The translations under genes and the position numbers were made by a program. A stretch of DNA of 32,526 nucleotides from Bacteroidia bacterium (GTDB lineage: Bacteria; Bacteroidota; Bacteroidia; NS11-12g; UBA955). The stretch lies in NCBI GenBank assembly GCA_025450395.1, contig JANWHK010000079.1:1-32526 (forward strand), written 5' to 3'. Shown here piece after piece: positions 18,361-29,310 of the stretch; position 1 is the stretch's first letter, and every line of letters starts with the position of its first letter. The notes below the pieces were generated by a model that was given only the letters and a program-made list of their open reading frames with translations, searched no databases and was not told the origin of the DNA.

Positions 18361-18402
18361 GAATTATGAATTATGAGTGATGAATTATGAGTGAGGAATG
18401 TA
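18361..18402. repeat. Heptamer tandem repeat array (6 x 7 bp) upstream of namZ
   Basis: gaattat|gaattat|gagtgat|gaattat|gagtgag|gaatgta, contiguous and in phase. Confidence 0.85.
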
Positions 18403-25362: not shown

Positions 25363-25749
25363 ATGAGCCTGCCTATCACGCAAAAAATCAACGTGTATGT
25401 GAAAACTTCTTTTAGCGAGCTGCAAAGCAATGTTGAACTCAATGAATATTTTTTTACCTATCATGTCATCATTGAGAATTTAAGCAATGAAACTGTACAA
25501 TTGTTGTCCCGCAAATGGCAGATAACAGACAGCAATGGTGAGAACAGGTTTGTGGAAGGTGAGGGTGTTGTTGGTGAGCAGCCCGTCATTGAAGCTGACC
25601 AGCAATATGAATATTATTCCGGCTGCCTCTTAAAGACAGGTTTTGGCAAAATGAGGGGATCTTATGTATTTCTCCGCGTGGACGATAATTACCGCTTCGA
25701 GGTGGAGATTCCTGAGTTTCACATGATTTTGCCTTGGGTGTTGAATTGA
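25363..25749 (+). CDS. apaG: ApaG domain protein
   Basis: Start MSLPITQKINVYVKTSF preferred (25363). FFTYHVIIENLSNETVQLLSRKWQITDSNGENRFVEGEGVVGEQPVI...YYSGCLLKTGFGKMRGSYVF is diagnostic of ApaG. Confidence 0.95.
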   Translation: MSLPITQKINVYVKTSFSELQSNVELNEYFFTYHVIIENLSNETVQLLSRKWQITDSNGENRFVEGEGVVGEQPVIEADQQYEYYSGCLLKTGFGKMRGSYVFLRVDDNYRFEVEIPEFHMILPWVLN

Positions 25750-25802
25750 GAGCCGGTGATCAGTAATCAGTAATCAGTGATCAGTGATCAGTAATCGGTG
25801 AG
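25749..25802. repeat. Heptamer tandem repeat array (CRGTRAT, 7 units) preceded by AGAGCCGGT
   Basis: cggtgat|cagtaat|cagtaat|cagtgat|cagtgat|cagtaat|cggtgag at 25754..25802; starts immediately at the apaG stop codon. Confidence 0.9.
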
Positions 25803-25821
25803 GAAGTTCAGTAAACTTTAG

Positions 25822-26688
25822 TTAGTATTTGGGAAATGCCAGCAATCCGCCGGTGTGTATCAACAGTACTTTGTCATTATCCCTGAAGAATTTCTTCAGG
25901 TAAAGATCCCTCACAGCCATCATCATCTTGGCGGTATAAACAGGTTCAAGGTGAATATTCGTTTCAAGTGAAAAGTCCTTGATGAACAGCATCATTTCAT
26001 CATCCATTTTAGCATATTTGCCCCTGTGATATTCGTGAAACACATGCCAGTACCCTTGTGGATACCTGCTAAGCCTTTTGTCAAGGGAATGGTTATTTTT
26101 CAGGGAACTGATGCCTATGACTTTTGTGTCGAGGCCTTTTTCAACCACTGCTTTTACAATTCCTTCCATCGTAGTTCCTGTTCCTAAAGCCAGCACTATA
26201 TAGTCATATTCTTTTACCAGTTCATCAAGTATCTCAGCACATCCTTCAAGGGCCAGCGGATGATCTCCTCCTTCATCCAGGAATACGGCGCCGGGATGAT
26301 GCCGGGCATAGGTCTCAAAAAGCTTGTGTTTATCGCGGTAAGCATCCCTGCTCACATGTTTCAGGGTCATCCTGTTGTCGATACATATATTTTCGTAGAT
26401 GTTGAACTCCCGATCTTCGTCGCCTCTCACGAAGCCATAAGTCGGAATATGAAAATGATTGCCTGCAAATGCGGTAGCGACCAAATGGTTGCTGTAAGCA
26501 CCGCCAAATGTCACAATAGGGCCTTTTCCGTTCTTTTGTACATCGGTAATGAAATACTTGAGCTTGCGCCATTTGTTCCCCGACACAATCGGGTGTATCT
26601 GGTCATCCCTGAGGATGTCTATATGCCTGTTGAAATCAAAGAAGGAACAGGTCAGTTGCTCGGTATGACTGGGTTTGAAGGGTAGCAA
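25822..26688 (-). CDS. PLP-dependent ACC deaminase / D-cysteine desulfhydrase family protein
   Basis: HPIVSGNKWRKLKYFI (PLP lysine), VTFGGAYSNHLVATAFAG, DEGGDHPLALEGCAEI, LALGTGTTMEGIV, HTGGLLAFPKY. Confidence 0.88.
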   Translation of the reverse strand: MLPFKPSHTEQLTCSFFDFNRHIDILRDDQIHPIVSGNKWRKLKYFITDVQKNGKGPIVTFGGAYSNHLVATAFAGNHFHIPTYGFVRGDEDREFNIYENICIDNRMTLKHVSRDAYRDKHKLFETYARHHPGAVFLDEGGDHPLALEGCAEILDELVKEYDYIVLALGTGTTMEGIVKAVVEKGLDTKVIGISSLKNNHSLDKRLSRYPQGYWHVFHEYHRGKYAKMDDEMMLFIKDFSLETNIHLEPVYTAKMMMAVRDLYLKKFFRDNDKVLLIHTGGLLAFPKY

Positions 26689-26728
26689 AAATCTTTAGCA
26701 AATTAAGTGAAAAACATCATACAATTCT

Positions 26729-26736
26729 TACATTTG
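26729..26736 (+). promoter_or_regulatory. Candidate -7 element (TACATTTG) upstream of the DUF4286 gene
   Basis: Exact TAnnTTTG match directly abutting the heptamer array at 26737. No clear -33 TTTG. Confidence 0.45.
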
Positions 26737-26771
26737 CAAATTCATAACCCATATCTCATAATTCATAATTC
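26737..26771. repeat. Heptamer tandem repeat array (5 x 7 bp) in the leader of the DUF4286 gene
   Basis: caaattc|ataaccc|atatctc|ataattc|ataattc; reverse complement resembles the namZ-upstream array. Confidence 0.75.
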
Positions 26772-26777
26772 CTTCAA

Positions 26778-27083
26778 ATGATCATATATAACGTCACATG
26801 CAATATTCCCGAAACCATGGAAGATGAATGGTTGCACTGGATGAAGCACGAGCACATTCCGGAAGTGATAGCAACCGAAAAATTCACGGGTTTCAAGATA
26901 CTGAAACTATTGACAGTGGTGGATGATAATGAAGGAGTGAATTACGCAGTGCAGTATTTCTGTCAGACTTTAGAAGATTATGAAGATTACGCAGAAAACT
27001 TCGCTCCTGCCCTGAAGGCAAAGACCTATAAAAGGTATGGCGACCGGGTTCTCGCGTTCAGGACGTTATTGGAGGAGGTTTGA
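26778..27083 (+). CDS. DUF4286 family protein
   Basis: MIIYNVTCNIPETMEDEWLHWMKHEHIPEVIATEKFTGFKILKLL matches the compact DUF4286 pattern as recalled. Confidence 0.8.
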   Translation: MIIYNVTCNIPETMEDEWLHWMKHEHIPEVIATEKFTGFKILKLLTVVDDNEGVNYAVQYFCQTLEDYEDYAENFAPALKAKTYKRYGDRVLAFRTLLEEV

Positions 27084-27097
27084 TTCTCTACTGATTG

Positions 27098-27137
27098 ATT
27101 CTGTCTTACCGATTACTGATTACCGATTACCGGCTCT
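27098..27137. repeat. Heptamer tandem repeat array (ATYACYG on +, CRGTRAT on -) ending in ACCGGCTCT
   Basis: attctgt|cttaccg|attactg|attaccg|attaccg followed by gctct; inverted counterpart of the array at 25749..25802. Confidence 0.85.
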
Positions 27138-29310
27138 AAAGGTTCTCCATAATATACTCCGTGATCTTCTGCATCAAATGCACCCGGTCCTTGCCTGTTA
27201 CATTGTGTTTATGGCCGGGATATACAAAATAATCCAGGTATGTATTGCCTACATTGACTGAGGTTTTACAATATAACAAGCTGTGTTGCCACAATACCAC
27301 ATCATCGTCACAGCCGTGTATCATCAGGAGTTTATCCTGCAGGCTGTTAACATAGTTCAGGAGGTTGGCATTTTTGTATCCCTCAGGGTTTTCCAGCGGG
27401 GTATCCATATAACGTTCGGTATACATGATCTCATACAAACCCCAGTCTATCACTGGTCCCCCGGCTACTCCAACCTTAAAGACCCCGGGCATACGCGTCA
27501 TCAGGCTGGTGGTCATGAACCCGCCATAACTCCACCCGTGAACTGCAATACGGTTGGCATCCACATAAGCGAATTCCTTCAGGTAGTTGACCCCTGCAAT
27601 CTGGTCCTGCATTTCGAGCTCGCCAAGCTTCCTGTGTGTTGCACTTTCAAAGGCGTGGCCCCTGTTTGAAGAACCCCTATTGTCGAGTGTAAATACAATA
27701 TACCCCTTTTGAGCCATCAGTTGCATCCAGAGATTGCTTCCTGCCAACCATGTGTTGTTCACCATCTGGGCATGGGGTCCGCCATAGACGTATACTACCA
27801 CCGGGTATTTCTTTTTCTTGTCAAAATCAGGAGGTGTGATCATCCTGCAATACAGTACGGTGCCTTCATTGACAATTGGAAAAAATGTGGTTTCACCCAA
27901 TTGATATTCTTCAAGCGGATTCGGGGCATTCAGCAATACCCTGAGTTGCTCACCCTTGTTGGTGTTTTGTGTAATCTTTTTAGGGACTGTCGTGCTGCTT
28001 AAAATATTGAGGAAATGATTGTATGGGGCATTGAAAATGGCTGTATTGGTGCCTTGTTCCGACGATAGTTTTTTTATCTCGTTCGTGCTGATATTTACGC
28101 TGTAAATATGCCTTTCGATCGGACTTTCCCTGGTCGCCTCAAAATATGCGAACTCACCTCTTGGATCTATCCCTATCAGGTTGGTCACCATCCATTTCCC
28201 GCTGGTGAGCTGACTGACCATTTTCCCATTTGTATTGTAAAGATACAAGTGGTTAAAACCGTCCTTTTCGCTTTGCCAGATAAATTTATTGGTCTCATTT
28301 GGCAGGAACATCATGCCGTGTTGCGGTTCAATATATTTTTCATCGCGCTCTTCGAAAAGCATCTTGTCCAGAATGCCCAGTTCAACATTGTACTTATTCA
28401 CGAAACACTGGTTCTGGCCCCTGTTGACAATGGCGATATATACAAAGTCCTCCTCAGGGCTCCAGGTAATATTGGTCAGATACTGTTCTTTTGGCTCACC
28501 CGTTTCCATATACAAGGTCTTTTGGGTTTGCATATCGTATACCCCTAATGTGACATGGTGGCTTTTTGCTCCTGCAATCGGGTATTTTATGTTGTATATC
28601 TGGGCTGGCATCTTGCTAACATCGTAAATGCCATAATCAGTTACCATGCTTTCATCCATCCTGTAAAAAGCCAGTTTGTTGCCTTTAGGACTCCAGAAAA
28701 ATCCCTTGGTAATACCGAATTCATTGCGGTGAACGCTCTGCCCGTAAACTATGCCTTTGCCGCCATCCCATGTGACTTGTCTTGGCCCTTCGGGTGTTGC
28801 AATATAAATGTTGTTGTTCTCGATATAGGCTACATTGTTTTTATTGTTTTCATATTCATGGTGCTCCGCTTTTGAAGACACCGATAAAATATTCCTGAAG
28901 GCCTGGACGGATATGTTGAAGTTTAAATACTGCGTGTCCTTATAGATCTTGAAATTGTCATTGTCTATCCATTCCATGACCGGAAAGGACTTCAAACTCA
29001 TGTTGCTGTTGTATGTCTTTATGGCATTGTTGAGGATGTCAAGGGATAAATTGCTGTCTGTTTTTTGGGTTTCAATATCCACGATATGCAGTTTTGCAGG
29101 TGTGCCGGTTTTAACGTATGAATATTTAGTTCCACCCGGTAACCATTGTAATTGAGACATGCCCTGGGGTCTTAGCGATTTTTTTGTTTCCTGCTGGACA
29201 CTGAGTATTGCTTCTTCCATGGTCAGTATCCGCTTAGCCTGTCCATGCGCGGTCTGGATAAGGCAAACGGCGATAATAAGGGAGATTTTCTTTAATCTTG
29301 TAATGTACAT
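27136..29310 (-). CDS. S9 family peptidase (dipeptidyl-peptidase IV-like), secreted
   Basis: Signal peptide, beta-propeller (FFWSPKGNKLAFYRMDESMVTDY), catalytic VHGWSYGGFMTTSLMTRMP, GCDDDVV, GHKHNV. Confidence 0.95.
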   Translation of the reverse strand: MYITRLKKISLIIAVCLIQTAHGQAKRILTMEEAILSVQQETKKSLRPQGMSQLQWLPGGTKYSYVKTGTPAKLHIVDIETQKTDSNLSLDILNNAIKTYNSNMSLKSFPVMEWIDNDNFKIYKDTQYLNFNISVQAFRNILSVSSKAEHHEYENNKNNVAYIENNNIYIATPEGPRQVTWDGGKGIVYGQSVHRNEFGITKGFFWSPKGNKLAFYRMDESMVTDYGIYDVSKMPAQIYNIKYPIAGAKSHHVTLGVYDMQTQKTLYMETGEPKEQYLTNITWSPEEDFVYIAIVNRGQNQCFVNKYNVELGILDKMLFEERDEKYIEPQHGMMFLPNETNKFIWQSEKDGFNHLYLYNTNGKMVSQLTSGKWMVTNLIGIDPRGEFAYFEATRESPIERHIYSVNISTNEIKKLSSEQGTNTAIFNAPYNHFLNILSSTTVPKKITQNTNKGEQLRVLLNAPNPLEEYQLGETTFFPIVNEGTVLYCRMITPPDFDKKKKYPVVVYVYGGPHAQMVNNTWLAGSNLWMQLMAQKGYIVFTLDNRGSSNRGHAFESATHRKLGELEMQDQIAGVNYLKEFAYVDANRIAVHGWSYGGFMTTSLMTRMPGVFKVGVAGGPVIDWGLYEIMYTERYMDTPLENPEGYKNANLLNYVNSLQDKLLMIHGCDDDVVLWQHSLLYCKTSVNVGNTYLDYFVYPGHKHNVTGKDRVHLMQKITEYIMENL

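Follow-up and report, generated by a model that had tools for sequence, protein, structure and literature searches.

The window analysed here, a stretch of 32,526 nucleotides, is contig C79 of a single MAG (2.46 Mb in 211 contigs, 68.5% complete), and its Por secretion-tail, DUF4286 and BshC domains are consistent with Bacteroidota. The region of interest runs from apaG to the gene of a DPP-IV-like peptidase that faces it, with two ordinary genes between them and short tandem heptamer arrays in the gaps (Table 1). One of the enclosed genes, encoding the ACC-deaminase-like protein, was present in 35 of the 39 genomes searched, the source genome counted.

Table 1. Genes and repeat arrays of the window.
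Feature	Position	Strand	Basis or remark
Heptamer array in an intergenic gap, GAATTAT/ATGAATT family	18361..18399		Tandem Repeats Finder
apaG, 128 aa	25363..25749	+	C-terminus LPWVLN, same as in congeners
RATYRGT heptamer array, sense after apaG	25747..25802	+	sequence read, Tandem Repeats Finder, inverted-match comparison
PLP-dependent ACC-deaminase/D-cysteine-desulfhydrase-like protein, ordinary gene	25822..26688	-	
Third heptamer array, separate family (ATTCATA/CATAAYY on +, RTTATGA on -)	26743..26771	-	Tandem Repeats Finder
DUF4286 protein, 101 aa, ordinary, conserved	26778..27083	+	
DUF4286/DPP-IV stop-codon spacer, 52 bp, plus DPP-IV stop	27084..27138	-	sequence, congener comparison
DPP-IV-like S9 peptidase	27136..29310	-	C-terminus MQKITEYIMENL, same as in congeners

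The array downstream of apaG consists of a degenerate lead-in, AGCCGGT, followed by six units (GATCAGT, AATCAGT, AATCAGT, GATCAGT, GATCAGT and AATCGGT), and the last base of the apaG TGA codon is the start of the lead-in. At the opposite end, the minus strand of the DUF4286/DPP-IV spacer reads TAG, AGCCGGT, AATCGGT, AATCAGT, AATCGGT and then continues as degenerate sequence. Tandem Repeats Finder called period-7 arrays at 25759-25796 and 27106-27132, and the two arrays share an inverted match of 33 nt with 88% identity (25746-25778 and 27108-27140). Their outer ends, AGAGCCGGT, form a perfect 9-bp inverted match (25749-25757 and 27129-27137) that has one base (A) in common with the apaG TGA and two (AG) with the DPP-IV TAG, and the inner mismatches are transitions. 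The preliminary description had reported inverted heptamer arrays at 25749-25802 and 27098-27137 with these outer ends, transitions-only inner differences and overlap with the stop codon of each outside neighbour; sequence, period-7 calls and alignment of the two arrays agree with it on all of these points. The third array that it had mentioned is also present, 6 bp upstream of the DUF4286 start with its purine-rich strand running outward from the gene, and belongs to a different family. AGCCGGT is a degenerate version of the unit that keeps the register of the array (RRCCGGT-RATYRGT), and an RRCCGGT lead-in precedes many other arrays across the genome; AGAGCCGGT was rejected as a recombination end on these grounds.

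Gene order and the orthologous site in congeners

The order TetR(-), apaG(+), ACC-deaminase-like(-), DUF4286(+), DPP-IV(-) is common, in whole or in part, to at least six congeners. Extended by dapD and a glycosyltransferase gene, it is found with the same relative orientations in G013, G008, G010, G009 and G005; the order is partly kept in G001, G003 and G016, and in G012 the ACC-deaminase-like gene has been relocated. No RATYRGT arrays were found at the orthologous congener loci. In G008, G010, G009 and G005 the stop codons of the DUF4286 and DPP-IV genes are directly adjacent (0 bp, e.g. TAGCTA), whereas 52 bp separate them here, and the C-termini of the DUF4286, DPP-IV and apaG proteins are unchanged relative to the congeners. 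The DNA was therefore added exactly between the two stop codons, while the two genes stayed in place. Loss in four relatives, instead of gain here, would be a less parsimonious reading of the same sequences.

The closest relative by its ACC-deaminase-like protein (G013, 68% identity) has almost no arrays in 70 kb. It carries about 1.3 kb between DUF4286 and DPP-IV (L129, 10678-12020), compared with 0 bp in the four other congeners.

These comparisons bear on the proposal of the preliminary description that the arrays bound an invertible or transferable two-gene cassette. The inverted pair, with its perfect 9-bp match at the outer ends, speaks for such a cassette, but array-free congeners keep the gene order and orientation, the same array is found singly at many unrelated loci, and no site-specific recombinase or transposase domain was detected among the window genes tested, in agreement with the earlier remark that the window lacks a recombinase. 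The orientation of the enclosed segment is the same across the congeners. A clean presence or absence of the segment was not seen either, as both genes stand in the same order in relatives. The cassette reading is effectively refuted, since nothing indicates movement or inversion of the two enclosed genes, and we assign it next to no probability. The synteny comparison that the preliminary description had proposed thus gave a collinear order that speaks against the cassette and leaves standing its more conservative alternative, the same 3'-flanking element placed behind two genes, which is strongly supported genome-wide. The inverted appearance of the pair arises because each array takes its orientation from its own gene, and apaG and the DPP-IV gene are convergent. 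Such a pair is not unique to the window, since other loci carry two or three of these arrays, one more inverted pair included. This second RATYRGT pair lies at L097 (4007-4020 and 4484-4497); its arrays are spaced by 477 bp within one convergent gap, and no gene was called between them.

Families, size and placement of the arrays across the genome

A RATYRGT pattern of three units (20-mer) gave 53 overlapping matches at 26 sites of at least three units in the source genome, and its reversed control gave 0. This listing, which the preliminary description had also called for, reveals single arrays to be widespread, against the cassette and in favour of a 3'-flanking element. RATYRGT arrays were absent from the 38 relatives searched, 16 congeners among them. 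Other heptamer families occupy the same gaps: a TACGAYN 27-mer has 68 sites in the source genome and 0 in 16 congeners, TTGTAAN has 52 matches here and 0 among 58 further members of the family, and KACGARG, RTTATGA and GAYAATK are also present. Across 225 kb of contigs picked without regard to RATYRGT (the unselected contigs), period 7 accounted for 36 intergenic arrays, as against 0-2 at periods 5, 6 and 8-13; only 2 heptamer arrays in these contigs were coding. Convergent gaps are preferred: of 35 arrays, 19 lay in convergent, 14 in tandem and 2 in divergent gaps, while convergent gaps make up about 22% of intergenic bases.

Repeats of other kinds were also seen. The gaps at L076, L077, L085, L089 and L091 contain another repeat of about 10 bases (GTGGGAACCGG, GGGAGCAGT) beside heptamer arrays, and those at L069, L149, L152, L153, L154 and L094 contain dispersed 50-180 bp repeats without heptamer structure, for example GAACCACGTCATGGCGAAT...ATGTGGCCATCTG. 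Contigs filed as viral (L286, L288, L295, L305, L309, L316, L321, L334, L351 and L356; 57-63% GC) carry 8-23 heptamer arrays per 5-12 kb, many of them RATCRGT.

The most frequent array lengths are 26-32 nt, with a median of 29 nt or 4.14 units, that is, about four. In TACGAYN arrays the second unit is TACGACA in 26 of 28 cases, variants hold preferred positions, and shared four-unit words exceed all 2000 within-array shuffles; the corresponding signal in RATYRGT is weak, being reached by 28 of 2000 shuffles. Some sequences of about 45-90 nt are found again in other gaps. Block copying is favoured over independent slippage, because loci share the order in which unit variants follow one another. 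Plain simple-sequence repeats that arise by replication slippage, with polymerase geometry favouring heptamers, and are tolerated only outside genes would account for tandem 7-mers that occur almost solely in intergenic DNA in many phyla, and for the way in which units grade into one another inside single arrays. Two papers attribute the idea of polymerase geometry to Mrazek 2007 (PMC4679880, PMC4692102). But slippage predicts decaying lengths, in contrast to the observed four-unit peak, it predicts no orientation relative to genes, and it predicts neither a recurring unit order between loci nor the octamers of one congener (below). We regard it as quite improbable.

The placement of the arrays relative to genes is strikingly strict. 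Counted without regard to family, the purine-rich strand runs outward from the nearest gene, within 12 bp, in 18 of 18 cases in the unselected contigs and in 53 of 54 at array loci; at array-free gene boundaries it is outward at 13 of 39 stops and 31 of 64 starts. One strand of RATYRGT contains stop codons in every frame while the opposite strand is free of them, and some RATYRGT arrays themselves supply the stop codon, which biases the orientation count for this family; a recount was therefore needed. It was confined to arrays wholly clear of the gene, at 0-25 nt, with a separate tally for arrays that are stop-free on both strands, and, on home-made gene calls like all the orientation figures, it gave 11:0 in the unselected contigs and 42:2 at array loci (9:0 and 36:2 at stops, 2:0 and 6:0 at starts). 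The stop-free arrays gave 4:0 and 15:1. With a cruder gene caller the polarity in the unselected contigs was weaker (14:6), so the precise ratios vary with the gene calls. In a test for which the prediction was fixed first, 40 further stretches with TACGAYN sites, independent of the unselected contigs, contained 31 arrays at most 30 nt away from a gene end; all 31 were oriented outward, 30 of them at stop codons and mostly 2-9 nt past the stop. Stop codons inside the arrays were rejected as the full cause of the orientation, since TACGAYN and KACGARG are stop-free on both strands.

The choice of stop codon is changed in genes followed by TACGAYN arrays. TAA is used in 9 of 47 such genes, compared with 253 of 450 genes that lack these arrays (p=1e-6); the base after the stop is G in 26 of 47 compared with 101 of 450 (p=5e-6). 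Typical junctions are TAG followed by GGGAATG and TGA followed by GGAATG. When all array-bearing convergent gaps were pooled, no clear stop-codon shift was observed. The TACGAYN junctions suggest that the purine-rich leading end of the element supplies part of the stop codon.

RATYRGT is found in many phyla, and heptamers dominate there, with 160 arrays compared with at most 13 at other periods. Orientation as a general rule across phyla is unsupported: other heptamers in these species gave 17:19, and the RATYRGT count of 26:7 is biased.

Relation to published repeats and proposed origin

The STRR heptanucleotide repeats of cyanobacteria (Calothrix) resemble those of the source genome in that a single genome contains several dispersed families of tandem heptamers. 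Like REP/BIME and MITE-type repeats, the arrays described here are dispersed, non-coding and near gene ends; unlike these, they are tandem heptamers. Hairpin folding is not consistent from array to array, and neither terminal inverted repeats nor target duplications were observed. The closest description is that of the GGGAATC and GGGGA(T/C)T repeats of Xanthomonas and Nostoc, which are intergenic, have a period of 7 with four units preferred, lie on the sense strand near stop codons and antisense upstream of ORFs, form opposite-strand convergent pairs and are rare between divergent genes (Rehm 2015, PMC4692102). The arrays of the source genome share the tandem 7-nt structure, the almost wholly intergenic location, the four-unit size, and the sense placement near stops and antisense placement before starts. 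They differ from the G-rich Rehm family in comprising several families, with no GGG in the RATYRGT, TACGAYN and TTACAAN units, and in being species-private, the orthologous sites of the window being array-free in the congeners compared, while 90% of the Rehm repeats lie between the same ORFs in two species (PMC4692102). Rehm 2015 ties the preference for four units to G-quadruplex formation and reports that no role in regulation was found (PMC4692102). Because the arrays here fit that description except for the G-tracts, quadruplexes are not the common cause. TAACTGA direct repeats occur in Beggiatoaceae, Cyanobacteria and, in similar sets, five Bacteroidetes (MacGregor 2015, PMC4679880). They lie mostly just upstream of start codons in the Beggiatoa genome; in Bacteroidetes, close relatives have shorter gaps without the repeats, and other heptamers occur alongside (PMC4679880). 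The present arrays resemble these as intergenic heptamers in short sets, with several heptamers together, but have the unit RATYRGT and lie mostly just after stop codons, not before starts. The feature is a sequence-diverse, species-private version of a repeat type that has been described before but lacks an explanation.

Two readings of the placement at stop codons have to be weighed, of which we favour block-copied, near-neutral DNA. The main rival is that the arrays are functional 3'-end elements, in which sense arrays act as a protein-binding or a termination or stability element and are selected to lie a few bases past the stop. The tight spacing, sense strand and roughly four units across several families are in agreement with such a function, as is the higher frequency of transcript starts and stops reported in Xanthomonas for quadruplex-forming repeats relative to control repeats (PMC4692102). 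Against it, the same genes in congeners lack arrays, and several unrelated unit sequences would need one common function. An Rfam search matched no conserved RNA family, and in RNA folding the longer window array (25747-25800) beats all 200 shuffles (z -3.6) while the shorter reaches z -1.2. Where hairpins resembling intrinsic terminators are visible, they lie between stop and array (L088 and L163, identified by eye), and those arrays may be untranscribed. We consider the functional explanation unlikely, if a serious contender; a role of the arrays in the mRNA 3' region is possible.

Each copy consists of about four 7-bp units on the sense strand directly after the stop, with the purine-rich strand leading off the gene. 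This much is observed; the favoured reading of block-copied, near-neutral DNA goes further. Judging by the resemblance between loci, copies would spread as blocks between gene ends and not by slippage site by site. They may persist at stops where the purine-rich leading end completes a TAG or TGA without lengthening the protein, and the DNA past the stop could thus be overwritten or extended harmlessly. Taken together, it is fairly probable that the two window arrays arose independently as copies of a post-stop repeat that is dispersed, species-private, block-copied, filtered at stop codons and nearly neutral. A survival filter at stop codons does not alone account for the rarity of reverse copies 10-60 nt downstream, which may point to targeted insertion or function.

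The congener G012 carries octamers (GTTAAGTY, GCTGAAAW) with 66 matches in its own genome and 0 in 16 other genomes of the genus; its intergenic arrays number 26 at period 8 and 8 at period 7. The period-8 arrays, observed at L138, L404 and L424-L440, have a median of about four units. We think it distinctly unlikely that a copy-in process sets four-unit sense repeats at stops, with the unit sequence and length reset in each species (7 in the source species, 8 in G012). Such a process, if real, would point to a dedicated writer that keeps a fixed register, which sets it apart from slippage and from ordinary transposition. A reverse transcriptase was rejected as the writer, there being no PF00078 match in the 68.5% complete genome.

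Heptamer repeats are common and unexplained among bacterial tandem repeats, and in the literature their four-unit size and location at stop codons have been put down to G-quadruplexes. The same size, placement and strand in families incapable of forming quadruplexes, together with octamers in a congener, call for a more general cause. A single genus here includes one species heavily loaded with arrays, a close relative with almost none and another species with octamers, which would make the origin of such repeats directly testable by strain comparison.
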